Source: Phycisphaerales bacterium
GTDB taxonomy: Bacteria; Planctomycetota; Phycisphaerae; Phycisphaerales; JAGLTS01
Assembly (NCBI GenBank): GCA_023135165.1
Contig: JAGLTS010000011.1
Location: forward strand, 1 to 64,000
Length of the DNA: 64,000 bases
Reading direction: 5' to 3'
Below are positions 30-12,232 of this stretch, in pieces. A program made the position numbers and the translations under genes. Below the pieces are notes generated by a model. The model had not been told where the DNA came from. It searched no databases and saw nothing but the letters and a program-made list of their open reading frames with translations. Each line of letters begins with the position of its first letter. The stretch's first letter is position 1.

Positions 30-80
30 GGTCCGCTCGCGTGGACGCGGCGGCTCGCTTCACCACGTGTAGCCCGCATC
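30..80 (+). repeat. Dispersed 51-bp repeat, copy 1 (overlaps a gene 3' end)
   Basis: Matches the reverse complement of 47467-47517 at 45 of 51 positions without gaps. Its first 32 nt also match 20637-20668. The copy spans the stop codon and last codons (DAGYTW) of the sulfotransferase gene and runs on into downstream DNA. A GCGAG/CTCGC inverted repeat lies in the core of copies 2 and 3. Confidence 0.75.
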
Positions 81-818
81 AAGCAGATCATCGCCGAGAC
101 GCTCCTCGAACACTGTGCGCAGCGCATCGTCGAACACATCGCGCCAGTTGCCGGGCGTGACGCGACGAACGTGCTTGGATGGATCTTCCGCCGTCGGCGC
201 CTGCACCTGCGCCGCCAGACCGCGGCTGATCTCTGATCGCACATCCATCGACCAACCGAGATGATCCGCGATGCGTGTGAACCAAGCGTCGAAGTCGCTG
301 ACGAGTTCTTCGTACGTGGTGAGCAACGTACGCGGGTAGCTCCGCATGAAGCGCACAGTCGCGAGAAACTCGTCGATGATCTTGTCCGCCTTGTATCGCA
401 GGACGCCTTTCGCCGGGCCGATCTCGATCAGCCGCCTGCGTTCTTCGAGGAACTGCTCCGGCCGATCGGGCGGCACGGGGTGGCTGTACGCTGTGGAGTA
501 ATACGCGCTGACGGCTGCATCGCGAGGATCGCGCCTGAGCATGATGAGCTTCTTGTCAGCGAATCGGCCGGCGGTCGGCGGCGGATCCTCGACGAGCAGG
601 TCGTACTGATCGGGATACACCCGCGTGGCGAGAACACCCGTCGGCGGGAGGGCCAACGCTTCGATCGATTCACCCCGCACCATCCGGTAGTGTACGGGGA
701 TGTGCTCGATCCCAGGCAGCGCTCGCTGCACCGCTTGGGCGAACCCGCCCGCGACGAACGTCGAAGCGCCCTTGTGTACGCAGCAGATGATGGTTGTCGG
801 ATGATCGCGTCCGGTCAT
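60..818 (-). CDS. PAPS-dependent sulfotransferase family protein
   Basis: A 252-residue protein with the sulfotransferase fold signature; the family moves a sulfuryl group from PAPS to an acceptor, here unknown. The loop VHKGASTF (residues 14-21) lies where the 5'-phosphosulfate loop belongs, LRRDPRDAAVSAYYS (94-108) fits the 3'-phosphate-binding segment, and HVRRVTPGNWRDVF (216-229) resembles the C-terminal GxxGxW region. No signal peptide is seen, so it is probably cytoplasmic. It is transcribed away from alaS. The product PAP could be removed by the phosphatase encoded at 38522-39502. The acceptor could be a glycan or another small molecule; sequence alone does not decide. Confidence 0.8.
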   Translation of the reverse strand: MTGRDHPTTIICCVHKGASTFVAGGFAQAVQRALPGIEHIPVHYRMVRGESIEALALPPTGVLATRVYPDQYDLLVEDPPPTAGRFADKKLIMLRRDPRDAAVSAYYSTAYSHPVPPDRPEQFLEERRRLIEIGPAKGVLRYKADKIIDEFLATVRFMRSYPRTLLTTYEELVSDFDAWFTRIADHLGWSMDVRSEISRGLAAQVQAPTAEDPSKHVRRVTPGNWRDVFDDALRTVFEERLGDDLLDAGYTW

Positions 819-929
819 GGCGTTGCCCCCGTCCTACCGCAGCCGAGTCGGCACCGCAACCCACAGCGCGGTACGATCGGCAAGCCTCACCGCATCACAC
901 TCCTACGCCCCGTACCGGAGCCGCTTTTC

Positions 930-3758
930 GTGCGAACCGCCGCCCAAATCCGCCAAGACTTCCTGGACTTCTTCATGGAGAAGCACGGGCACTCGTTCGT
1001 GCCCTCGTCGCCGGTGATCCCGCATGACGACCCGACGCTGCTTTTCGCCAACGCCGGGATGAACCAGTTCAAGCCCTGCTTCCTCGGCACCGCCCCGCCC
1101 GGCAGCGAGCTGGCCCGACTCACCCGCGCGACCAACAGCCAGAAGTGCATCCGAGCAGGCGGCAAACACAACGACCTTGACGACGTCGGCAAGGACACCT
1201 ACCACCACACGTTCTTCGAGATGCTCGGCAACTGGTCCTTCGGCGACTACTTCAAGAAGGAGGCAATCGCCTGGGCGTGGGATCTGCTCACGAACGTGTG
1301 GGGGCTCGACAAACGCCGCCTCTACGCGACCGTCTTCGGCGGGGATGAGGCGCTCGGTCTCCCGCCCGACGAAGAGGCGGAAGCCCTGTGGAAGAGCGAG
1401 ACGGACATCGACCCCAGCCACGTCCGGCGCTTTGGCACGAAAGACAACTTCTGGGAGATGGGCGAGACCGGCCCGTGCGGACCGTGCAGCGAAATCCACT
1501 ACGACGGCACGCCCAACCTCACCGGCGGCGACCTCGTCAACGCGGACCATCCCGACACCATCGAAATCTGGAACCTCGTCTTCATCCAGTACGACCGGCA
1601 GGATGACGGCTCGCTGCGAACGCTCCCCGCCAAGCACGTGGACACGGGCATGGGCTTTGAGCGCATGGTCCGCATCCTCCAGAACAAGACGAGCAACTAC
1701 GAGACCGATCTGTGGTCCCCCATCTTCGCCGCGATTCAGAAGGCGACCGGCACGCGACCTTACGGCGGCGAACTCGACGACCCGACCAACATCGCCTACC
1801 GCATCATCGCTGACCACATTCGTACGCTGACGCTCGCGATCACGGATGGCGCGCCGCCTTCCAACGAAGGACGAGGCTATGTTCTTCGTCGAATCCTGCG
1901 CCGGGCCGTGCGACACAGCAGGCAAACGCTCGGCGTCAAGGGCGTCTTCTTCGCTGATCTCGTCCCAGCCGTCGTCGATTCGCTCGGGGATGCCTTTCCG
2001 GAACTGAGAAACAGCCCCGACGCCGTGATGGAGATCCTGCGCGAGGAAGAAGAGAGCTTCGGCAGAACGCTCGACCGCGGGATAGCGCTCTTCGAGGAAG
2101 CGGCGAGCCACCCGCAGGCCCACCAGTCGCGCCGAATCCCGGCCGATGCGGCATTCAAGCTGCACGACACGTATGGCTTCCCGATCGACCTGACGGAGAT
2201 CATGGCGCAGGAGCGCGGCATGAGCGTCGATCTCGCTGGATATGAGAAGTTGATGGGAGAGGCGCGCGACCGCGCCCGTGCTGCGGGGCTTGGCGAGGGC
2301 GCCGCGGCACATCTGTCGCTGCCTGCAGAGGCCATCGGCGCGCTTCGCAAGGAGGGGATCGCCGCAACGGATGACTCCCCGAAGTTCGACGCCACACAGA
2401 CGCAAGCGGTCATCACATCAATCTGGGATGGAACGCAATTCGTCGAGCGAGTCGAGGCGAGCGATCAACACATCGCAGTCCTGACCGACCGCACGACGTT
2501 CTATGCCGCAATGGGCGGGCAGGTCGCGGACACCGGCACCGTCGCCGTAGCGGGCGGCAAGCTCGATGTGATCGATACGCAAACTGCGGGTGAGTACATC
2601 CTGCACATCGGCACGGTCACATCCGGCAAGTTGCACGTCGGCGATACAGTGACGACGACGGTCGATGCCAACCGACGCTCACCGATCATGGCGAACCACA
2701 CCGGAACACATCTGCTCAACCTCGCGCTGCGAACCGTGCTCGGCGACCGCATCGAACAGAAAGGCTCGCTCGTCGCGGACGATCGGCTGCGCTTCGACTT
2801 CTCACATTCGCACGCACTGTCACACGACGAGTTGACCGAAGTGCAGCACCTCGTCAACCAGGACATCAACGCGGCGCTCACGGTGCATGCACAGGACGTT
2901 CCGCTTGACCGTGCGAAGAAGGTCCAAGGCGTGCGCGCGGTCTTCGGCGAGGTCTACCCCGACCCGGTGCGCGTCGTGTCGATCGGCGTCCCCGTCGCGG
3001 AGCTCATCGCCAACCCGCATCACGAGAAATGGCGCCAGCATTCCATCGAATTCTGCGGCGGCACGCACCTTCAGTCCACAGCCGATGCGGACGGCTTCGT
3101 CATCGTCAGCGAAGAGGCGGTCGCCAAAGGCATACGCAGGATCGTCGCCGTCACGGGTTCGCAAGCGAGCGACGCGAGGGATCATGCCCACGAGTTGCGC
3201 CGCCGACTGTACGAGGCGGAGAAACTCCCCGTCGAGGCGCTGGCGAAGGAAGCCCAGGCGCTGGCCCGGCAGCTCGACAGCGCGATGCTGCCCGCCGGCG
3301 AGCGAATGGAGCTGCGCGGCGTGCTGAGCGAACTGCAGGCAAAGGTCAAGGCTGTGGCGAAAACAGCGGCTGCGGGTGATCGAGACCGTGTGCTCACCGA
3401 AGCGAGCAAGCTCGCGGATGCCGCAACGGGCGAGGCGATCGTCCTGGAACTGCCCGGCGCCGTCGGCCAGACGATTCGCAACGCCATGGATGTGTTCAAA
3501 TCCAAACATCCGGACAGCGCGATCCTGCTGGCGAGCGGCGATGAAGAAGCCGGGAAGGTCGCGATCATCGCGCGCGTGCCCGAGGCGCTCATCAAGCGAG
3601 GGCTCAAGGCGGGTGACTGGGTCCGCACCGCGGCCCAAGCGTGCGGCGGCAAGGGCGGCGGGCGACCCGATTCAGCCCAGGCGGGCGGCAAGGAGCTATG
3701 CAAGCTCCCCGAAGCGCTCGACGCGGCGATCCGGTTCGCACATGAGAAACTTCGATAA
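930..3758 (+). CDS. alaS: Alanine--tRNA ligase
   Basis: Cytoplasmic enzyme that charges tRNA-Ala. I chose the GTG at 930: an ACCGGAG Shine-Dalgarno lies just upstream and the protein then begins RTAAQIRQDFLDFF, as in the family. The same frame stays open back to 261, but that part is antisense to the sulfotransferase gene. From 930 the protein has 942 residues, somewhat longer than the E. coli enzyme (876). The class II catalytic core is N-terminal (GMNQFKPCF, TYHHTFFEMLGNW). The editing-domain zinc ligands are visible: H590 and H594 (HTGTH), C709 and H713 (CGGTH). The C-Ala domain ends with the glycine-rich GGRPDSAQAGG. An AIM24-family gene follows 21 nt later. Confidence 0.97.
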   Translation: MRTAAQIRQDFLDFFMEKHGHSFVPSSPVIPHDDPTLLFANAGMNQFKPCFLGTAPPGSELARLTRATNSQKCIRAGGKHNDLDDVGKDTYHHTFFEMLGNWSFGDYFKKEAIAWAWDLLTNVWGLDKRRLYATVFGGDEALGLPPDEEAEALWKSETDIDPSHVRRFGTKDNFWEMGETGPCGPCSEIHYDGTPNLTGGDLVNADHPDTIEIWNLVFIQYDRQDDGSLRTLPAKHVDTGMGFERMVRILQNKTSNYETDLWSPIFAAIQKATGTRPYGGELDDPTNIAYRIIADHIRTLTLAITDGAPPSNEGRGYVLRRILRRAVRHSRQTLGVKGVFFADLVPAVVDSLGDAFPELRNSPDAVMEILREEEESFGRTLDRGIALFEEAASHPQAHQSRRIPADAAFKLHDTYGFPIDLTEIMAQERGMSVDLAGYEKLMGEARDRARAAGLGEGAAAHLSLPAEAIGALRKEGIAATDDSPKFDATQTQAVITSIWDGTQFVERVEASDQHIAVLTDRTTFYAAMGGQVADTGTVAVAGGKLDVIDTQTAGEYILHIGTVTSGKLHVGDTVTTTVDANRRSPIMANHTGTHLLNLALRTVLGDRIEQKGSLVADDRLRFDFSHSHALSHDELTEVQHLVNQDINAALTVHAQDVPLDRAKKVQGVRAVFGEVYPDPVRVVSIGVPVAELIANPHHEKWRQHSIEFCGGTHLQSTADADGFVIVSEEAVAKGIRRIVAVTGSQASDARDHAHELRRRLYEAEKLPVEALAKEAQALARQLDSAMLPAGERMELRGVLSELQAKVKAVAKTAAAGDRDRVLTEASKLADAATGEAIVLELPGAVGQTIRNAMDVFKSKHPDSAILLASGDEEAGKVAIIARVPEALIKRGLKAGDWVRTAAQACGGKGGGRPDSAQAGGKELCKLPEALDAAIRFAHEKLR

Positions 3759-3779
3759 TCACACGATAAGGAGAGCGAC

Positions 3780-4568
3780 GTGCCTGCCGACATCATCGAC
3801 TACACGATCATTGGAGACGACCTCCAGGCCGTCGTCATCACGCTCGATCCGGGCGAAGCGTGCGTCGCGGAAGCCGGCGCGATGATGTACATGGAAGACG
3901 ACATCGACATGGCGACCGAACTGTCGATGAAACAGGATGGCGGCGGGGTCTTCGGCAAGCTCTTCGAGGCGGGCAAGCGCGTGCTCGCCGGCGAGTCGTT
4001 CTTCATCACGATGTTCGCCAACCAGGGCGGGCAGCGCCGCGATGTCGCGTTCGCCGCACCGTACCCCGGACACATCGTGCCCGTGGAACTCACCGATCAC
4101 GCAGGCACGCTCATCTGTCAGAAGGATGCCTTCCTATGCGCGGCGCGCGGCGTGAGCGTGGACATCTTCTTTAGCAAACGCATCGGCGCGGGGTTCTTCG
4201 GCGGGGAAGGGTTCATCCTCCAACGCCTCTCAGGCGACGGCCTGGCCTTCCTGCACGCGGGCGGCTCGGTGTGGTCCAAGACGCTGCAAGCAGGTGAAAC
4301 GCTGCGCGTTGACACGGGTTGTCTGGTCGCCTTCGAGCAAACGGTCGATTACAACATCGAGATGGTCAAGGGGATCAAGTCGATCTTCTTCGGCGGCGAA
4401 GGGCTGTTTTTCGTCACGCTCAAAGGCCCGGGCACGGTCTGGCTGCAAACGCTGCCGTTCAGCAGGCTCGCCGACCGCATCATTGCCAGCGCACCGGCGC
4501 ACGGCGGCAAATCCAAGGGAGAAGGCTCGGTGCTGGGCGGACTCGGTCGCTTGCTCGACGGCGATTGA
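3780..4568 (+). CDS. TIGR00266 / AIM24 family protein
   Basis: A 262-residue soluble protein of the AIM24 family, a double-psi or beta-roll type fold found in bacteria, archaea and mitochondria. Its biochemical role in bacteria is unknown. Family-like segments are GGVFGKLFEAGKRVLAGES, GEGFILQRLSGDGLAFLHAG and the repeated GGEG turns. The GTG start at 3780 follows AAGGAG with good spacing. It lies 21 nt after alaS on the same strand, so co-transcription is likely, but no functional link is evident. The C-terminal 20 residues are glycine and serine rich and probably unstructured. Confidence 0.85.
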   Translation: MPADIIDYTIIGDDLQAVVITLDPGEACVAEAGAMMYMEDDIDMATELSMKQDGGGVFGKLFEAGKRVLAGESFFITMFANQGGQRRDVAFAAPYPGHIVPVELTDHAGTLICQKDAFLCAARGVSVDIFFSKRIGAGFFGGEGFILQRLSGDGLAFLHAGGSVWSKTLQAGETLRVDTGCLVAFEQTVDYNIEMVKGIKSIFFGGEGLFFVTLKGPGTVWLQTLPFSRLADRIIASAPAHGGKSKGEGSVLGGLGRLLDGD

Positions 4569-4573
4569 CTGCG

Positions 4574-4613
4574 AATCTCAAATCTGAGATCTCAGATCTC
4601 AAATCTGCATTTT
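4574..4613. repeat. Short ATCTCAAATCTG-type repeat tract
   Basis: A quasi-palindromic tract built from permutations of CTCAAATCT and CTGAGATCT. A similar tract lies at 6512-6537. Both tracts are followed by the same 33-bp segment (see 4614-4646). The tract lies between the convergent AIM24-family and DUF4349 genes. Confidence 0.8.
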
Positions 4614-4646
4614 AAGTCTCAGATCGCGGGCACGCCCTTGACCGTC
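4614..4646 (-). repeat. Duplicated 3' end of the NeuD-like gene (gene remnant)
   Basis: Matches 6538-6570 at 31 of 33 positions with a constant offset of 1924 bp. On the minus strand it reads VKGVPAI followed by a stop, the exact C-terminus of the acetyltransferase encoded at 6543-7196. Here no gene body precedes it; instead it abuts the stop codon of the DUF4349 gene (4645-4647) in another frame. The ECF sigma/DUF4349 pair is therefore bracketed by direct copies of this segment. Confidence 0.85.
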
Positions 4647-5820
4647 ACTTGCCTTGGGCGACGTGGTCGGCGGCCTTCTTGATGTGGTTGCGAACGAGCA
4701 AGATCACGACGACCAGCATGATCCACCAGACCAGGCCGGCGACGGCGATCTGCAGGATCTTGGCGATTGTCGCGCTCAACACGTCCAGCCCGGTGCGCCA
4801 TGCGCCGCCAACTCGTTCCGTGAAGCTCGACCACAGCGAAGCTGTCTGCTCCGGCTCTTCGACGTGATCCGCCGGGCGAATAATCACGAGCACGCTGCTG
4901 AGCGAGACCAGGCGGGAGAGCCGATCGCGCTGGGCGACGAGCCGTTCGACGTGGTCGCGCACACCGCTGATTTCCTTGCGCAGTTTCAGGATATCCGTGA
5001 GCGGCGCGTCGTCGCGCTGGGCGAGCAACTCCAGGAGCTCCTCCTCAATACGCCGTTCGTTGCGCAGCCGGGCCTCGACATCAACGACCTGAGATGTGAC
5101 ATCCTCGCCGGACAGCTTCTCTGAGGTCACTTCGCCGAAATCACGCAGGGCGTTGAGCAGTTGGCTGAGCCTGCGCGATGCAATGCGCATGGTGATCTCA
5201 GCTCTCGCGCTTTCACCGGCGCCGCGCAAGCTCGACTCCTGGATGTACTCGCCGCCTGCCTCGCTTATCAACTGGGTGATCGCGTGGAACGCTGCATGCA
5301 CATCATCTGTTCTCAACTCAACGTTCGCCTTCCGCACGACGTGTCGCGTCATGCTGGGGATCGGCGGGATATTGTCGGTCTCGGCTTGGGCAGCCAAACC
5401 TGCAAAAGCCGCGCGGGAAGTCGATAGGTACCGGAAGTCGGTATCCGGCTGGATCTGTGGAGGTGAAAGAACCGGGTCTCCAGCACGCATGGCCTCATCT
5501 GGAACGCTCCCCCTCTCCAGCATGAGCGAATAGTTCTGATCGGCGCTTCCCACGCGCCGGGCGCTGTCTCTCGCCGGAGTGACCATCAGGTTCGGTACGG
5601 TCACCGCGACGAGGACAACGACGAGTGCGGCAAGCGCGAGCGTTGCCGCCACCGGCCAAGGCACCGCGAGGTTGAACAGGCGCAGCAGAGGTCGCTCCGG
5701 CTGGCGTCGGGCTGATTCCGCCTGATCCAGCGCCGCTTTCCAAAGCCCCGGCGTCTCGTCGGACCATGTTGTGAGTTGCCCTAGTTGTGCTGTCACGTCA
5801 GGCATCGGCTCGTCGCTCAT
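4645..5820 (-). CDS. DUF4349 membrane protein, putative sigma-factor partner
   Basis: A 391-residue protein with an N-terminal cytoplasmic segment of about 50 residues, a transmembrane helix (about 53-76), a long extracytoplasmic region containing the DUF4349 core (MTRHVVRKANVELRTDDV through a coiled coil at roughly 230-300), and a second membrane helix near 355-380. Its ATG overlaps the stop of the upstream ECF sigma gene (ATGA), a strong sign of coupled translation. I infer that it acts as, or replaces, a membrane anti-sigma factor; the family itself has no proven function. It lacks an obvious zinc-binding anti-sigma motif in the N-terminal segment. Confidence 0.8.
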   Translation of the reverse strand: MSDEPMPDVTAQLGQLTTWSDETPGLWKAALDQAESARRQPERPLLRLFNLAVPWPVAATLALAALVVVLVAVTVPNLMVTPARDSARRVGSADQNYSLMLERGSVPDEAMRAGDPVLSPPQIQPDTDFRYLSTSRAAFAGLAAQAETDNIPPIPSMTRHVVRKANVELRTDDVHAAFHAITQLISEAGGEYIQESSLRGAGESARAEITMRIASRRLSQLLNALRDFGEVTSEKLSGEDVTSQVVDVEARLRNERRIEEELLELLAQRDDAPLTDILKLRKEISGVRDHVERLVAQRDRLSRLVSLSSVLVIIRPADHVEEPEQTASLWSSFTERVGGAWRTGLDVLSATIAKILQIAVAGLVWWIMLVVVILLVRNHIKKAADHVAQGK

Positions 5821-6377
5821 CGTGACACCTCCGCTGCAAGCTGCTGCCTGAGTTCTTGAAGCCCACTGTGCAAACGCGACTTGAGCGTTCCAAGCGGGAT
5901 CCGCAAGATCTCCGCAGCCATTTCATGTGTCATGTCATGGTGGTAGCAGAGCACAAGCACCTCTCTGCGCGCCGGGGGCAACTGATCGAGTGCTTCGGTC
6001 AACCGTGCGCGCTGTTCGGATCGGCGGATGCTCGCATCCGGTGCCGCCGTGCTGTCGCTCGCCGAATGATGCACATCCAGGCACGCGTGCACCGCCTTTC
6101 CTCGCTGGGCTGCATACCATGATCTGCCGCGGTTGATGAGAATCGTGTAGAGCCACGTTTTGACACTGCTCCTGCGGCGGTACGACCGAGCGCTGCGAAT
6201 CACGCACAACCATGTCTCCTGCACGAGTTCGCAGGCGACGGTCCGCGATCCTCCCGCCAGACCGAGCGCCATGCCGAGCAGTGGTCGTTCGTATCGCTCA
6301 GCCAACTCTCCCAGCGCATCGCGGTCGCCATTGCAGAACGCATGGAGGAGCGCTTCGTCGCTCTGCCGGTCGCTCAT
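5817..6377 (-). CDS. ECF-type RNA polymerase sigma factor
   Basis: A 186-residue sigma-70 family protein of ECF size. Region 2 is at about residues 10-75 (ALGELAERYERPLLGMALGL, ELVQETWLCVI) and region 4 at about 125-180 (LDQLPPARREVLVLCYHHD, AEILRIPLGTLKSRLHSGL). The ATG at 6377 is preceded by AAAGGGG. It is translationally coupled to the downstream DUF4349 membrane protein, the usual arrangement of an ECF sigma factor and its regulator. The pair lies between duplicated copies of the neighbouring acetyltransferase 3' end, suggesting it was inserted or duplicated as a unit. Target promoters are unknown. Confidence 0.92.
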   Translation of the reverse strand: MSDRQSDEALLHAFCNGDRDALGELAERYERPLLGMALGLAGGSRTVACELVQETWLCVIRSARSYRRRSSVKTWLYTILINRGRSWYAAQRGKAVHACLDVHHSASDSTAAPDASIRRSEQRARLTEALDQLPPARREVLVLCYHHDMTHEMAAEILRIPLGTLKSRLHSGLQELRQQLAAEVSR

Positions 6378-6511
6378 GTGCCAGCCCCTTTGACAAGTTT
6401 GACCTGGCTAACACGCCTTTGGTTCGCGCTATCTTGTCCGAATCCGTCAGATTTAGAACGATACGCTCCGGCTCGCTGCAAGAGACCTTGAAAGCTCTCA
6501 CGCGAGGATCG

Positions 6512-6570
6512 ATCTCAAATCTCAGATCTCAAATCTCAAGTCTCAGATCGCAGGCACGCCCTTGACGGTC
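6512..6570. repeat. CTCAAATCT-type tract plus 3' end of NeuD-like gene (second copy)
   Basis: 6512-6537 is a tract of ATCTCAAATCT/CTCAGATCT units. 6538-6570 is the partner of 4614-4646 and here forms the genuine end of the acetyltransferase gene, including its stop codon at 6543-6545. The tract is at the junction between that gene and the region upstream of the ECF sigma gene. Confidence 0.85.
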
Positions 6571-7196
6571 GCGCCGTCGGGGACATTGTGGATGACGACC
6601 GAGCCGGCTGCGATCGTCACGTTTCTGCCGATCCTGATGCGAGGCAGGATTCGCGCCCCCAGACCGACGAGGGAGTCCGCTCCAACGGTGACGCCGCCGC
6701 CGAGGACCACACCGGGCGCGATGTGCGTGAAGTCGCCGATATGGCAGTCGTGCTCAACGATCGCCCCGGAGTTGATGATCGCCCCTCGGCCGATGCTCGC
6801 GGCGGTGTGAATGACACAGCCGGGCCCGGCGAACGCGCCGCCGAACCACTGGGACGTTGGACTGACTTGAGCGGACGGGTGCAGGATGTCCACAGGTTCG
6901 GACGTGTTGCCCGCCAGATCGGCGCAGATCTCCTGGACCTGCCGGCGAATCGCGTTGTCACCGATCCCGACGACAAACAAGGGCGCCAGATCCGGGCTGA
7001 AATCCGCAATCGCGCCCAGCCTCCGGGCGTGCATCGCGGGCATGTCGGCATTTTCGTCATCGTCGAGGAAACCGACGACCTCCCGGCTCATGCGGGCAGC
7101 CTCGGCTACAACCTGGGCGTGCCCCCCGCCGCCGATGATCAGCACCGGCGCCCGGAGAATCACCGTCCTGTTGCCTGCTCCGCCGCCCTGCTGCAT
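6543..7196 (-). CDS. NeuD/PglD-like sugar O- or N-acetyltransferase
   Basis: A 217-residue protein of the NeuD/PglD family. The N-terminal Rossmann-like part carries VLIIGGGGHAQVVAEAAR (residues 18-35), and the C-terminal half is a left-handed beta-helix of hexapeptide repeats (IGRGAIINSGAIVEHDCHIG, then VTVGADSLVGLGARI). Such enzymes use acetyl-CoA to acetylate sialic-acid-like or bacillosamine-type sugars for surface glycans. No glycan-synthesis genes sit beside it, so the substrate is open. The start at 7196 has a weak ribosome binding site; a GTG at 7163 just before the Rossmann motif is an alternative. Its 3' end is the source of, or shares an origin with, the fragment at 4614-4646. Confidence 0.85.
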   Translation of the reverse strand: MQQGGGAGNRTVILRAPVLIIGGGGHAQVVAEAARMSREVVGFLDDDENADMPAMHARRLGAIADFSPDLAPLFVVGIGDNAIRRQVQEICADLAGNTSEPVDILHPSAQVSPTSQWFGGAFAGPGCVIHTAASIGRGAIINSGAIVEHDCHIGDFTHIAPGVVLGGGVTVGADSLVGLGARILPRIRIGRNVTIAAGSVVIHNVPDGATVKGVPAI

Positions 7197-7363
7197 GGGT
7201 CATCGCCTATCACATCGGGTACACACCGACAGCACTGGTTCCGAGAAGAATCGGCAAGAAACGCGCACCAGTCCAGCACGCTTCGGAAACATCCTACCGT
7301 CATTCACAGGCAAGGCCCGGCCCTCCGCAGCCGAACCACACCCACCGAACCACCGGCACGGCG

Positions 7364-7369
7364 TACAAT
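7364..7369 (+). promoter_or_regulatory. -10 element TACAAT for mqnA, leaderless spacing
   Basis: TACAAT ends 6 nt before the mqnA ATG, so a start 6-8 nt downstream of the hexamer would fall at the start codon. No Shine-Dalgarno sequence precedes the ATG and no clear -35 box is present. This points to a leaderless transcript. Confidence 0.6.
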
Positions 7370-7375
7370 CCCGAC

Positions 7376-8218
7376 ATGTCCGACGATCAGGCCAATAACA
7401 TCACCCGCGTCGGCTGCGTGTCGTACCTCAACACGTTGCCGCTGATCGACGGCCTGGATCGGCTGGCGAACCTCTCGCTCTCCTATTCCGTCCCCTCCGC
7501 CCTGCTCGGCCGACTGCTCGCAGGCGAAATCGACCTCGGCCTTATCTCGACGATTGACTACCAGCTAGCGCGCAAGCCGCTCCGACTCGTCGGCGCCGGC
7601 ATGATCGGGTGCGACGGCCCGACGCTGACGGTCCGCGTCTACTCAGCCGTCCCGGCGGATCAGATCACGACCGTGCATGTCGATCGAGAGAGCCACACGT
7701 CCGTCGCCTTGATGCGGATCATCCTGCGCGAGATGCACGGGCGCGATGTGGACATCATCGAGTTCGACGCACGGCAGCGACGGACGGAGGGCCGGGGCGA
7801 TCCCCAGCCTGAAACGATGCTGCTCATCGGCGACAAGGTCGTGACCGATTCTCCGCCGACCGGGCGCTATTCGCACCAGCTCGACCTGGGCGAAGCGTGG
7901 CACGCGCTGACGGGCTTGCCGTTCGTGTACGCCGTCTGGATGTGCCGGGATGACCTTGATGAGAAGCAGGCGCGTCAGATCGCCACGGCTGCCGCGGTGC
8001 TGGATCGTCAGCGTCGCCACAACGTCGAGCGGATCGACCAGCTCCTGGCGCGCAGCGCCGTGCCGCGAGGTTGGCCGATCGACCTCGCCCGTGCATACCT
8101 CACGGACATGCTCCGCTTCGCCGTCGGACAACGTGAACGGCAGGCGATCGAGGTCTTCTTCGACAAAGCGAACCAAGCCGGCCTGACCCCGCGCCGTCGC
8201 CCAACGACCTGGCTGTAG
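7376..8218 (+). CDS. mqnA: Chorismate dehydratase, futalosine menaquinone pathway
   Basis: A 280-residue protein of the MqnA family, which dehydrates chorismate to 3-enolpyruvyl-benzoate in the first step of the futalosine route to menaquinone. Family-typical segments are RVGCVSYLNTLPL at the start, EIDLGLISTIDYQ, RESHTSVALMRIIL, LLIGDKV and DLGEAWHALTGLPFVYAVW. The fold is a periplasmic-binding-protein-like two-lobe one, but there is no signal peptide, fitting a cytoplasmic enzyme. A sigma-like gene begins 4 nt after its stop and is almost certainly co-transcribed. No other mqn gene lies in the window. Confidence 0.93.
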   Translation: MSDDQANNITRVGCVSYLNTLPLIDGLDRLANLSLSYSVPSALLGRLLAGEIDLGLISTIDYQLARKPLRLVGAGMIGCDGPTLTVRVYSAVPADQITTVHVDRESHTSVALMRIILREMHGRDVDIIEFDARQRRTEGRGDPQPETMLLIGDKVVTDSPPTGRYSHQLDLGEAWHALTGLPFVYAVWMCRDDLDEKQARQIATAAAVLDRQRRHNVERIDQLLARSAVPRGWPIDLARAYLTDMLRFAVGQRERQAIEVFFDKANQAGLTPRRRPTTWL

Positions 8219-8222
8219 CACA

Positions 8223-9878
8223 ATGCCCAGGCTCCCGACATTACGTCTTCAGCCGCTGGCCGACTTGCTCGAACAGCTCCGCTACGCCCCGCGCGAAGCT
8301 CGCATGCGCCAGATGACGCAGACTGAGGCGCTCGCGGCGGAGATCACGCCAGGCCAGCACTACCCTCACACTTACATCGTGTTCCGCCTCACCGGGTATC
8401 GCCCCGACACCGCGCCCACAGACGAACCGATCTACGCAGGCGATGCGGTCCTCGTGGATCTTGGAGTCCTCGTCGAACTGCTTTCCGACTCACTGGACTT
8501 GTCACGCAACGACCTGGGCAAGCCGTCGCTCACACTCGACGAGCTGCGCCGCCACTGGTCCGTGAGCAGCCGAACCATCGACCGATACCGGCGGCACGGA
8601 CTGATCGGCCATCGTGTGATCGACGAGGAGGGCGATCACAGGTTGGTTTTCACAATGCGTCAGGTCCAACATTTTGAGGCGCTGCACAAAACACAGCTCG
8701 CCGGCGCACAGCGGTTCTCGCGCATCGACGACGATGTGGAGCAGCGCATCCTCCGCCGAGCGCGCAGGTATCACAGTGCGCTGGGGTATTCGCTGAACCA
8801 GACCGCAGCCAGGCTGTCGCGCCGCTTCGATCGAGGACATGAGACGATTCGGCAACTGCTCGCACGGCACGACGCGGAGGCCGGCCCCGATGCTGTGTTC
8901 ACCAAACCGGGGGTTCTGACCGAAAAACAGCGCCGCACGCTCCACCGCGCGTGGAGGCGAGGCATTCCCATCGATCGTCTGACCCGTGCATATGGACGAA
9001 GCCGATCATCCATCCATCGCACGATCGGCGAGTACCGAGCGGGTCTCTTGCGCCGGTTGGATCTCACCGGACCCACATCGCCCACGTTCGTGCGCGACGA
9101 TGCGGACTCGGTCATCCTCGCGCCGGGAAGCGTGCGCCGAAACCTGGCTCCGGCGGCGTTTGGCACAGCTCAGGCGTTCGCTGCGTTCGCACAGGCAAAT
9201 GATCTTCCCGAAGCGGAGATCGAAGAAACGCAGTGCGCCGCATTGCACTACCTGCGCTACCTTGCTGCGCGCGAGTCAGCCGATCTGTCGCGCCATCAGC
9301 CATCCACCGTCTCACTGGATCAGATCGAAACACATCTGCGGTGGGCGAGCAGGATCAAGGCAGCGCTGATCGCATCCCATGCCCGGCTCGCGCTGCAAAC
9401 GATCGAGCAGTTCATCGGCCGACCGTTGCTCAGCATGCCCGGGACTGAGGTTCGGCAGCTCTTTGATCTCTCGACAACGGCGTTGTCACGCGCGGTGGAT
9501 GCGCACGACGTGTTCAAGGGAGGACGTCTGGCGGCGCCTGCGGGACTGCTGCTGACCCGCCTGCTCGCGGCGCATGTGCACAGGCCGGCCGATTCACTCG
9601 CACGCGCCAGGCACGATGCATCGGCCGTCGTACTGTCGGACTATCGTTTTTCGCTCGATCCCTGGCAGGGCTGGCTGGAGTTGCCCACGTTTCTGCTTGG
9701 ACGAATGACCGTGCTCGATGCGACGGAACGAATGGTCATCACCGCACGCTATGGGCTGGATAGCGCGCAGCCGCTCACCGCATCCACCGTCGCCGACGAG
9801 ATCGCAGCAACGCCGCAGCGCGTGTTGCGCGTGGAGCGACATGCGATCCGCAGACTGTACGGCGTGCAGCTCGCATGA
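8223..9878 (+). CDS. Divergent sigma-70-like protein with extra HTH regions
   Basis: A 551-residue protein. Residues 102-150 look like a MerR-type winged helix (TLDELRRHWSVSSRTIDRYR). Two further helix-turn-helix candidates follow (about 187-214 and 246-272). Residues 327-352 recall sigma region 1.2/2.1. Residues 374-452 align by eye with sigma region 2: the family pattern of a conserved RLV helix, a GR turn, then AVDKFD-KG is echoed by ALIASHARLALQTI, IGRPL and AVDAHDVFKGG. Residues 496-545 resemble region 4.2 (ATERMVITARYGLD, TPQRVLRVERHAIRRL). No region 3 is visible. I infer a specialised or decayed sigma factor; a large multi-HTH DNA-binding protein is the alternative. It sits 4 nt behind mqnA. 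Confidence 0.7.
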   Translation: MPRLPTLRLQPLADLLEQLRYAPREARMRQMTQTEALAAEITPGQHYPHTYIVFRLTGYRPDTAPTDEPIYAGDAVLVDLGVLVELLSDSLDLSRNDLGKPSLTLDELRRHWSVSSRTIDRYRRHGLIGHRVIDEEGDHRLVFTMRQVQHFEALHKTQLAGAQRFSRIDDDVEQRILRRARRYHSALGYSLNQTAARLSRRFDRGHETIRQLLARHDAEAGPDAVFTKPGVLTEKQRRTLHRAWRRGIPIDRLTRAYGRSRSSIHRTIGEYRAGLLRRLDLTGPTSPTFVRDDADSVILAPGSVRRNLAPAAFGTAQAFAAFAQANDLPEAEIEETQCAALHYLRYLAARESADLSRHQPSTVSLDQIETHLRWASRIKAALIASHARLALQTIEQFIGRPLLSMPGTEVRQLFDLSTTALSRAVDAHDVFKGGRLAAPAGLLLTRLLAAHVHRPADSLARARHDASAVVLSDYRFSLDPWQGWLELPTFLLGRMTVLDATERMVITARYGLDSAQPLTASTVADEIAATPQRVLRVERHAIRRLYGVQLA

Positions 9879-9907
9879 GCGCGAAGCAAAGGCGGGCCAT
9901 CAACACG

Positions 9908-9951
9908 ACCTCCGCCTCGGTGTCCTCCGTGCTCTCCGTGGTGAATCATGT
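9908..9951 (+). repeat. Post-gene CTCCGTG-type intergenic repeat
   Basis: A pyrimidine-rich run with repeated TCCTCCGTG and TCTCCGTGG units starts 30 nt after the stop of the sigma-like gene. It resembles a phrase (CTCCGTGTCCTCCGTGGTGAA-like) that I know as dispersed in many bacterial genomes. It is followed by TTCGCGAAC and TTCGCGAAG palindromic hexamers at 9954-9970. I do not read it as coding. Confidence 0.5.
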
Positions 9952-9999
9952 GGTTCGCGAACTTCGCGAAGCCGCGAGCGGCTTGTATGCGCAGCGGCA

Positions 10000-10029
10000 A
10001 AGCCCACGGCCCTGGATAACCGTGGGCTT
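10000..10029. terminator. Bidirectional terminator hairpin
   Basis: AAGCCCACGG and CCGTGGGCTT form a perfect 10-bp stem with a 10-nt loop between two convergent genes (stop codons at 9878 and 10086). The flanking A and T residues suit termination on both strands. Confidence 0.7.
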
Positions 10030-10085
10030 CCCCGTGCGCCCTGTGCCGAGCGCTATATCAAAGCGACACGCAACATCACCGCATG

Positions 10086-10361
10086 CTATGCATCACGGTC
10101 ATCAGTCTGTTGACGATTGAGCATGTCGCGGAGGTACTTGTTTTCGCGGCGAGTGGCTTCGAGATCGAAGACGAGGTACTTCACGCTCAGGCGAAGATAG
10201 TCAAGACTCTCCTGCAACTCCTTGACCGCATCACGCATGCGATCGTGACGGTCCTTTGTCTGCTGGGCGAGCGATTCAAGTTCGCCTCGCTTCTCGCCGG
10301 GCAGTTGTTGAATCTGTTGCATGAGTTCGTCGAGTTTGCTTTGGAAGAACTGATCGTCCAT
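10086..10361 (-). CDS. Small conserved coiled-coil protein
   Basis: A 91-residue, highly charged, predicted all-helical protein beginning MDDQFFQSKLDELMQQIQ and containing the run LEATRRENKYLRDML near the C-terminus. I chose the ATG at 10361 because AAGAAGG precedes it and because the upstream extension (to 10469) looks non-coding. Heptad-like spacing of leucines over about residues 40-85 suggests a coiled coil and dimerisation. No catalytic motif is visible. Function is unknown; a regulator or cell-structure adaptor would fit. A perfect hairpin terminator follows the gene. Confidence 0.75.
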   Translation of the reverse strand: MDDQFFQSKLDELMQQIQQLPGEKRGELESLAQQTKDRHDRMRDAVKELQESLDYLRLSVKYLVFDLEATRRENKYLRDMLNRQQTDDRDA

Positions 10362-10557
10362 GGCCTTCTTTCTCCCGATACCGCGTCTGGTGTTGTTGTA
10401 CCCCATGCGATGTAACAAGACCGCAGCCAGGCTGTGCCAGTTCTTGCCGGGTCCGGGAATTGCGGTCAAGACACGCTCGCGGACGCGGTTTCGGCGTCAT
10501 GTGCCGTCAGCACCCCCGCTCCAGCACGGTCCGGATTGCTCAGGATGTTGATTCAGA

Positions 10558-11166
10558 TCAACGCCGGGCGTGGCGGCGCTGCACCGCTCGGGCTGCCTCC
10601 GCGGACAAGTCCTGCGTGATCGACGCTGCACGCGCGGGGTCCTCACGGCGAAGCTGATCCAGCAGCACGCCGAGCCGGTTATCACGCTCACGGCGCCATC
10701 GCTCGAAGAGCTGCTCAAGCTCATGCCGAGCAAACGCGCTGAGCGGGTCAGCCAGGCGGGATTGCGCGACACCCCAGTCAATCAGGCTTCGCGGCGAGCT
10801 GTCGAACCGGTACAGCTTGATCGTGGCGGCGATCCGCTTCTCGATGGGCAGGAACGGATCGCGCGTCTCATCGGGCAAGGTGAGCATCCGGTCGGTCAGC
10901 ATCCCTTGCTCGATCGTCGCGCCAGGCCCGTCGTCGCCTACGGGCTGGGTGGTCAGCGGGGCAGGCGAGGCATCGGCTTCGAGCTGAAGCCGCGCATAGT
11001 TGGTGCTCAGGGACTTGACACCCGCATCCTGGAAGCGTGCGGTGACGATCTGGACGACCGCCCCGGTGTGGGTCGCCGTTTCGGTCTTGCTGACCACACC
11101 GACGCCCCATTCGGGCTTGTCGAGATGGACGATCCGGTCGCCTCGGGTGAAGGTTCGCTGGAGCAT
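10558..11166 (-). CDS. DUF3553 domain protein
   Basis: A 202-residue protein whose N-terminus (GDRIVHLDKPEWGVGVV, residues 9-25 or so) matches the small beta-barrel DUF3553 domain, which is often attached to helicases and other DNA-acting proteins. The remaining part is helical and charged (FARHELEQLFERWRRERDNR) without a recognisable catalytic motif. The ATG at 11166 is preferred over 11241 because the domain begins there and a TACACT -10 lies only 7 nt upstream. It diverges from accA. Role unknown; a nucleic-acid link is inferred from the family only. Confidence 0.75.
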   Translation of the reverse strand: MLQRTFTRGDRIVHLDKPEWGVGVVSKTETATHTGAVVQIVTARFQDAGVKSLSTNYARLQLEADASPAPLTTQPVGDDGPGATIEQGMLTDRMLTLPDETRDPFLPIEKRIAATIKLYRFDSSPRSLIDWGVAQSRLADPLSAFARHELEQLFERWRRERDNRLGVLLDQLRREDPARAASITQDLSAEAARAVQRRHARR

Positions 11167-11173
11167 GGGCAAG

Positions 11174-11179
11174 AGTGTA
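11174..11179 (-). promoter_or_regulatory. -10 element TACACT for the DUF3553 gene, leaderless spacing
   Basis: On the minus strand TACACT ends 7 nt before the ATG at 11166, with no Shine-Dalgarno between. Same geometry as at mqnA (7364), the acyltransferase (21102) and polX (32557). Confidence 0.55.
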
Positions 11180-11224
11180 AGGGCTGCGGGGCTGGGACTA
11201 AAGCCGCGCCGCCGCCTGAACCGG

Positions 11225-11230
11225 TACAAT
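11225..11230 (+). promoter_or_regulatory. -10 element TACAAT for accA
   Basis: CGGTACAAT lies 36 nt before the accA start codon. No convincing -35 hexamer is seen. A GAGGAT ribosome binding site follows, so accA has a short leader, unlike its divergent neighbour. Confidence 0.5.
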
Positions 11231-11266
11231 GCTTTCTTCACGCCAGCCGAGGATAAGCCCCACCCG

Positions 11267-12232
11267 ATGTCGCAGATTCATCAACTCGATTTTGAGCGGC
11301 CGCTGATCGAACTTGAGCACCAGATCGCTGAGCTTGAATCGCATCAGGCGAGACGGAGCGGGTCCGTCGATCTCTCCGACGACCTGGAGAAGCTCCGCCA
11401 GAGCCACGAGACGATGCTCAGCAAGGTCTACGACGGGCTTTCAGCCTGGGATACCGTGAAGGTCGCCCGCCACCCCAATCGGCCTCAGGGACGCGACTAC
11501 ATCCGAATGATCTGCAAGGATTTCTGTGAGTTGCACGGCGACCGGCGATTCGGCGACGACCCGGCGATCGTGACCGGGTTCGCACGCATCGGCTCACATC
11601 GATGTTTGATCGTCACCCACCAGAAGGGCAAGACGACCGAGGAAAAAATCGCCTGCCACTTCGGCTGCGCCCATCCCGAGGGCTACCGCAAGGCGTTGGC
11701 GAAGATGAAGCTCGCGGAGAAGCTCAGCTTGCCGATCGTCACATTCGTCGACACGCCCGGCGCGTACCCCGGCATCGGGGCTGAGCAGCGGGGCCAGTCT
11801 GCGGCGATCGCGGAGAACCTGCTGGAGATGTCCAGGCTCAAGACGCCGATCATCAGCGTCGTCATCGGCGAAGGTGGATCGGGCGGGGCGCTGGGCATTG
11901 CCGTGGCCGACCGCGTCGCGATGCTCCAGTATGCGTGGTATTCGGTGATCAGCCCGGAGGGGTGTGCCGCCATCCTGTGGAAGGAGTCGCAGGAGCCGAC
12001 CAACATCGCCGCTGCCGAGGCGCTGCAGCTCACTGCCGAGCACAACCACAAGCTCGGCGTGGTGGATGCGATCATCCCCGAGCCGCTGGGCGGGGCGCAC
12101 CGCGACCCCGAAGCCGCTGCGGCACAAGTTGAGAAGTGGCTCGTCACCAAACTGCGCGAGTTGAAACGGTTCAAGCCCGAGAACCTGCCTGCCCGGCGGT
12201 ACACGCGATTCCGCAAGCTCGGGACGCCGTGA
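11267..12232 (+). CDS. accA: Acetyl-CoA carboxylase carboxyltransferase subunit alpha
   Basis: A 321-residue AccA, which with AccD transfers the carboxyl group from biotin carrier protein to acetyl-CoA, giving malonyl-CoA for fatty-acid synthesis. Diagnostic segments are HPNRPQGRDYIRMICKDFCE, FVDTPGAYPGIGAEQRGQS, VVIGEGGSGGALGIAVAD and SPEGCAAILWK. The ATG at 11267 follows GAGGATAAG and begins the usual LDFERPLIELE segment; the open frame upstream is spurious. No accD or biotin carrier gene is in the window. A sigma-70-type promoter for the next gene lies 47 nt after its stop. Confidence 0.97.
   Translation: MSQIHQLDFERPLIELEHQIAELESHQARRSGSVDLSDDLEKLRQSHETMLSKVYDGLSAWDTVKVARHPNRPQGRDYIRMICKDFCELHGDRRFGDDPAIVTGFARIGSHRCLIVTHQKGKTTEEKIACHFGCAHPEGYRKALAKMKLAEKLSLPIVTFVDTPGAYPGIGAEQRGQSAAIAENLLEMSRLKTPIISVVIGEGGSGGALGIAVADRVAMLQYAWYSVISPEGCAAILWKESQEPTNIAAAEALQLTAEHNHKLGVVDAIIPEPLGGAHRDPEAAAAQVEKWLVTKLRELKRFKPENLPARRYTRFRKLGTP

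Follow-up and report, generated by a model that had tools for sequence, protein, structure and literature searches.

How did a two-gene regulatory operon come to lie between two copies of the same gene end? In the window, by which we mean the whole 64,000-nucleotide stretch of Phycisphaerales DNA that was analyzed, an ECF sigma factor gene and a DUF4349 protein gene are found between an AIM24-family gene and a NeuD-like gene, and a direct repeat joined to heptamer arrays brackets the pair. From left to right, the features are:

3780-4568, plus strand: AIM24-family gene (PF01987, E 9e-76), with its stop 6 bp before the left array
4575-4606, no strand assigned: left heptamer array, with units ATCTCAA/ATCTGAG/ATCTCAG (TRF period 7, 4.6 copies)
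4609-4646, minus strand: left copy of the direct repeat (array edge and NeuD 3' end), overlapping the DUF4349 stop codon and 34/38 identical to 6533-6570
4645-5820, minus strand: DUF4349 protein gene (PF14257, E 6e-46)
5817-6377, minus strand: ECF sigma factor gene (PF04542, PF04545/PF08281; TIGR02937)
6512-6549, no strand assigned: right heptamer array (TRF period 7, 5.4 copies), overlapping the last NeuD-like codons
6533-6570, minus strand: right (resident) copy of the direct repeat (NeuD 3' end, stop and array edge), from the repeat comparison
6543-7196, minus strand: NeuD-like sugar O-acyltransferase gene (TIGR03570, 186 bits against a cut-off of 160.8)

An earlier note on this DNA had reported that a 33-bp segment at 4614-4646 recurs at 6538-6570. 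We reproduced this identity (31/33), and pairwise comparison within the window extended it to 34/38 over 4609-4646 and 6533-6570. The right copy is the actual end of the NeuD-like gene, including the TGA stop and the last codons VKGVPAI, as had been proposed, and the last codon and stop of this gene fall within the right array. The left copy would likewise give VKGVPAI followed by a stop; it sits outside the named genes and starts at the DUF4349 stop codon (4645-4647). The tracts said to adjoin the repeats are 7-bp tandem arrays per TRF (4575-4606 on the left, 6512-6549 on the right), of which the left one degenerates onward to about 4625 and is matched at 4568-4616 in the family scan. Since each copy is joined to an array, the duplicated unit is a gene end plus an array (about 59 and 72 bp). 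A search for the 25-bp gene-end pattern, allowing up to 3 mismatches, found two sites in the 3.9-Mb genome (92.4% complete; reversed-pattern control 0), both of them in the window. With uniform base composition, a pair at 31/33 or better would arise by chance in 64 kb with a probability of about 1e-7. With two gene-end copies only and so low a chance, the observation stands: the duplication bracketing the sigma/DUF4349 operon is real and confirmed. The earlier note had held that presence of the segment in many unrelated places would speak against its reading; the gene end has its two copies, while the array half is found in 10 places.

The differences between the copies bear on two other origins. 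The genome is in 119 contigs, and two repeat-ended contigs could have been joined in assembly; this is very improbable, as the copies differ in sequence and unit number and coherent genes lie on both flanks. The 4 differences in 38 positions, plus the array changes, make a simple assembly duplication unlikely. Neither of the two substitutions within the 33 bp changes an amino acid when read in frame with NeuD, which would fit a second NeuD-like gene, tandem or xenologous, reduced to its last codons beside DUF4349. We consider such a remnant unlikely: only 21 bp would be left of it and the array would have been duplicated along, selection on the resident copy alone accounts for the synonymous changes, and NeuD has no further close copy in the genome, the second-best match standing at E 1.8e-5.

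Between the repeats there is a single sigma/DUF4349 pair, as had been noted: one ECF sigma gene and one DUF4349 gene per Pfam. The sigma gene has Sigma70 regions 2 and 4 and shares an ATGA overlap with the DUF4349 gene, and the two adjoin each other in 8/8 relatives' loci examined; this overlap and this pairing indicate an ordinary operon. The DUF4349 protein is predicted, from its operon position and from hydrophobic stretches seen by eye, to be a membrane anti-sigma-like partner. The arrangement is like that of ECF sigma/anti-sigma operons in that the sigma gene overlaps its partner gene by ATGA and the pair is kept in relatives, and unlike it in that the partner here is DUF4349; we found no paper joining DUF4349, ECF and anti-sigma in the open-licence literature. 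DUF4349 matches were present in 13 of 40 relatives. In accordance with the earlier note, no match to an integrase or transposase was found in the two genes inside the repeats or in nine neighbours (Pfam, E 0.001, window 60-12232); one of these 11 genes (10086-10469) had no Pfam match of any kind. Farther along (window 7376-9878), the gene order NeuD, MqnA, 551-aa protein is the same in one relative, G013 (L154), and the 551-aa protein has a C-terminal Sigma70_r4 match and no other Pfam match.

The bracketing repeat deserves more attention than the cassette itself. Its array part is (ATCTSAR)n, a 7-bp tandem. The earlier note did not recognize that these tracts are members of a family of repeats dispersed in the genome, which are also found around a four-helix-bundle gene. 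Searching the host genome for ATCTCAR with up to 2 mismatches gave 28 matches (reversed control 0), which form 10 arrays: two in the window, three at C80, and one each at C60, C45, C69, C88 and C2. By ORF maps, the arrays at C60, C45, C88 and C69 lie between convergent gene ends and the one at C2 between divergent genes; without the operon, the window array would also sit between convergent gene ends, as at 4/5 of the other non-C80 sites. When these 10 arrays were compared together with 47 from five other genomes, the window pair alone was seen to have unique flanking DNA in common, with 13 identical bases adjoining the array by BLAST. Where flanks matched at other arrays, the match came from additional 7- or 8-bp arrays, from a palindromic repeat or from windows that overlapped. 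No ATCTSAR arrays were found in 318 kb of relatives' loci around the operon, AIM24 and NeuD (L139-L158).

Several other array settings were seen along the way. Two arrays of G049 (L303, L305) have next to them a 24-bp stretch that includes a palindrome (CACTGCTC..GAGCAGTG), and a separate repeat of about 40 bp adjoins a solo array at L165 1450-1495, with up to 48 matches in G028 and a few in sister genomes. An IMG/VR contig of 10 kb (L202) carries eight ATTTGAR-type arrays (nine before merging), several of them, by eye, just before start codons. We rejected L204 as a second array-plus-flank duplication: its common 34 bp looks by eye like a leader, and the contig is phage-like with other repeats.

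Direct repeats that include a gene 3' end resemble att sites, and the cassette might accordingly be an integrative element that entered as an excised circle and later lost its integrase. This is quite improbable given that no recombinase was seen in the two inside genes or the nine neighbours scanned, that most of the repeat consists of dispersed heptamer array, and that the 318 kb of relatives' operon, AIM24 and NeuD loci hold no such arrays.

To place the operon among relatives, we compared 60 genomes, all "same order" as the host, which with the host genome (G000) makes 61. The operon's neighbours differed from those in the window in 8/8 relatives' loci among the loci listed. In four genomes of genus g4, it is flanked by genes that, like groES and groEL below, we take from their sequence to be what their names say, prolyl oligopeptidase and polA; polA either adjoins the operon or stands at a distance of no more than about 2 kb. 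Among the loci listed, those of G018, G039 and G011/G001 have only sigma and DUF4349 in common with those of g4. Conversely, the operon was absent from all AIM24 and NeuD loci of relatives examined. Judged by coordinates, the top matches to AIM24, alaS and NeuD lie apart from one another in relatives, except alaS and NeuD in G012, and the NeuD, MqnA, 551-aa order is kept in one of the five NeuD loci examined (G013). Because AIM24, alaS and NeuD are also elsewhere in relatives, the operon's different location there says little; gene order is lost in general at this evolutionary depth, and the operon's other locations are weak evidence. No empty site was found in the 80 AIM24 loci among the matches listed, which are 56-68% identical and include no close relative. 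G012 was tried as an empty site and rejected, as NeuD and alaS are convergent there, yet with other ORFs between them. A donor site was also sought through polA in the host: behind its 3' end there is what looks by eye like a tRNA, and the contig then ends, with no DUF4349.

We tentatively propose, with a probability of about 0.42, that a single unit, the NeuD 3' end with its solo array, makes up both bracketing repeats, and that the operon entered by a break in that array. AIM24 and NeuD would at first have converged on a solo array lying between their 3' ends. Breakage or recombination at this quasi-palindromic array would then have admitted the sigma/DUF4349 operon from another place, and in the process the array and about 21 bp of the NeuD tail would have been duplicated, giving the order NeuD-B-operon-B-AIM24. 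The operon itself carries no genes for mobility; in this reading the array serves as site and not as motor. Entry of the operon is favoured by the A-B-insert-B-C form of the repeat, by the two-copy gene-end segment, by the convergent array context at 4/5 other sites, by the 47 arrays of other genomes, at which no dragging of flanking DNA was seen, and by the operon's other neighbours in 8/8 relatives' loci together with the missing DUF4349 behind polA in G000. It is disfavoured by the fact that DUF4349 reads through to its stop, with the left copy beginning exactly there; a randomly cut fragment would be expected to bring some native downstream DNA. By eye, the length of DUF4349 is similar to that in G003. 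Both the direction and the mechanism of this event are what we infer from the arrangement, and breakage, circle integration and template switching are indistinguishable as the cause of the duplication. Of the earlier proposal that a cassette was inserted or duplicated at a gene 3' end, the true duplication and the coherent operon hold, and insertion is only possible.

The exact start of the left copy at the DUF4349 stop would fit another history, in which NeuD and AIM24 had the operon between them before the event and the NeuD-end array was copied behind DUF4349, dragging along 21 bp of the NeuD tail. Such copying could have occurred by array spread, or by ectopic gene conversion if DUF4349 was already followed by an array. 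By eye, stop codons are often directly adjoined by arrays and four-helix elements. Sister species also differ in which solo arrays they have: one in G013 has no counterpart at the equivalent position of G028, G023, G008 and G003, which carry other sequence there. Against this history, no dragging of unique flank was seen at the 47 arrays examined in other genomes, and the array would originally have lain between codirectional genes, a context not seen at the five other non-C80 sites of the host. Both accounts fit, and we regard array copying as a possible but less probable one, leaning to entry of the operon.

What, then, are the arrays? At C80 (G000:C80:39025-39583; L013 1496-2066), ATCTSAR arrays are found upstream, downstream and in frame within an ORF that is the one detected PF05635 gene of the host genome (TIGR02436 76 bits, cut-off 24; PF05635 82 bits, cut-off 33.8). 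The in-ORF array position is also used in G031 (L193) and G049 (L190). This element adjoins protein-coding ORFs, with no 23S rRNA helix location there, and its inverted-flank score is low (8) although arrays lie on both sides. In the window, no PF05635 ORF lies between the arrays; sigma/DUF4349 is there instead. Across the 61 genomes, a strict array pattern (1 mismatch) was found in 10, with 17 matches in the host, 70, 19, 13 and 11 in four others and 1-3 in the remaining five, counts that include overlapping matches. PF05635 was found in 39/61 genomes, comprising 10/10 array-positive and 29/51 array-negative ones. Each of the five genomes with at least 11 array matches has one PF05635 match that has such arrays beside or inside it; in G049, this member is a fragment below the cut-off. 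The five array-linked proteins form one clade in an IQ-TREE analysis of 62 rows (the 64 first rows minus two; support 100/100; none of 500 shuffles as low), and the same five stand alone in a clade of a FastTree of 115 rows (support 0.999); finer branching is unreliable because the alignments have few columns. The clade is present in the five genomes with 11-70 matches, and the 56 others have 0-3, as raw counts uncorrected for host phylogeny.

We then characterized PF05635 loci in general, using 122 matches from the 61 genomes (eight rows below the cut-off were kept in the 122 and dropped in a set of 114). Inverted flanks exceeded the 99th percentile of a control pairing flanks of different elements in 77/122 loci (75/114 over the family cut-off) and fell below it in 45/122. 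Tandem flanks (at least 0.75 identity over 28 nt) had period 7 in 48/122 loci and period 8 in 23/122, with 0-3 for periods 5, 6, 9 and 10; control windows several hundred bases off, taken for the first 64 loci only, gave period 7 and period 8 in 1/125 each. Repeat units vary between elements, and the flanks at other PF05635 loci look protein-coding by eye, or are annotated CDS in plasmid loci. We rejected L333, L350 and L365 as ATCTSAR arrays; they are loose-scan matches, but their unit is GATTTCG.

Presence and absence could be followed at the groES-groEL junction, where G011 and G016 have an element and their congeners G001 and G006 have none; it replaces the native intergenic stretch and is not added onto it. 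Its arm sequence recurs elsewhere in at least five places in G011, at least about ten in G016 and at least one in G006, with none scored in G001; these are lower bounds, as 37 candidates per genome were scored. Four-helix elements at this junction were seen in L265, L351, L231 and L238, in several genera of one family and with differing units, and the element is absent in two species of L265's genus. In G046, GAGTACC is the unit of the genome's own element (L233) and recurs beside other arrays, with 10 occurrences in 81 kb of G046 and 0 in 607 kb elsewhere. A scan by unit type gave 34 same-genome and 177 other-genome matches, or 3.8 vs 0.8 per 100 kb, with a bias from the choice of loci collected, and 27/33 elements had no further unit copy in the same-genome DNA scanned. 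Given that bias and those 27, the link between element and solo array is shown for a few unit types only.

Similar elements are carried by plasmids. In a sample of 14 of 24 matching records of named plasmids, mostly cyanobacterial, period 7 was found in at least one flank of 12/14 PF05635 loci, the two below 0.75 identity being Stanieria (0.64) and Azospirillum (0.71). Hosts include Nostoc, Anabaena sp. 90, Pseudanabaena, Nostoc edaphicum, Calothrix, Trichormus and Riemerella. The inverted-arm score was at least 24 in 10/14 loci (control median 10) and above the control percentile in 4/14, many control pairs sharing a unit. In Pseudanabaena and Anabaena plasmids (L374, L375), a cas6/cas4 junction holds a four-helix gene with period-7 flanks, and in a Nostoc edaphicum plasmid a four-helix element lies between two ribonucleotide reductase genes. 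Heterocystous cyanobacteria are known for STRR heptanucleotide repeats, which are short, tandem and present in many intergenic places; the plasmid loci suggest that these repeats may be linked to four-helix genes.

Together, these results suggest that PF05635 elements with array arms and solo arrays constitute a system of miniature elements with a partner protein, which would include the rRNA intervening sequences (IVS) and in which mobility would be deduced from presence and absence between species, where loss is as possible as gain. A broader reading, which we hold at a little under even odds, is that four-helix genes with inverted 7-8-bp arms and solo arrays of the same unit are widespread miniature mobile elements with the protein as partner or mover, that rRNA IVS and many heptamer satellites are special cases, and that the window records a solo array serving as the site of an operon rearrangement. 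The mobile-family reading is weakened by the 27/33 elements without a further unit copy in the same-genome DNA scanned, the 45/122 loci below the inverted control and the weak inverted score at C80; no nuclease or catalytic activity is known for a small four-helix bundle. The candidate is a one-gene element that sits between genes, also inside core operons (groES-groEL; on plasmids, cas6/cas4 and ribonucleotide reductase), and that may seed solo repeats, which in turn may become breakpoints, perhaps as in the window. Heptamer satellites have hitherto been listed without a source, and a tie to rRNA IVS would yield this testable candidate; a link between heptamer repeats and S23p four-helix proteins was not found among the open-licence papers listed, judged by titles and the starts of abstracts.

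Among known systems, the rRNA IVS of Coxiella burnetii has its S23p ORF between terminal inverted repeats, with tandem heptameric repeats (GACAGAT) just upstream of the start codon (PMC4990558), and the Discussion of that study states that IVS origin and function "remain unclear" (PMC4990558). The present elements are like it in being small, with one four-helix-bundle (S23p) ORF and, in the 77/122 loci above the control, inverted flanks, and unlike it in lying between protein genes, in having arrays of 7-8-bp units that vary by element, and in the scattered solo arrays. Prokaryote heptamer satellites such as (GATAGRA)n in Chloroflexus aurantiacus, described as probably transposed throughout the genome (PMC6749651), are likewise scattered heptamer arrays; no link to a protein or element was seen in that paper, and its main text does not contain the term "four helix" (PMC6749651). 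Finally, REP/REPIN sequences with RAYT/TnpA-REP (PMC3116915, PMC8266576) likewise combine extragenic repeats, which are short, frequently palindromic and spread over a genome, with a gene of a linked protein clade in that genome, whereas in the system proposed here the repeat is a heptamer array and not a fixed hairpin, and the linked protein is the PF05635 four-helix bundle.
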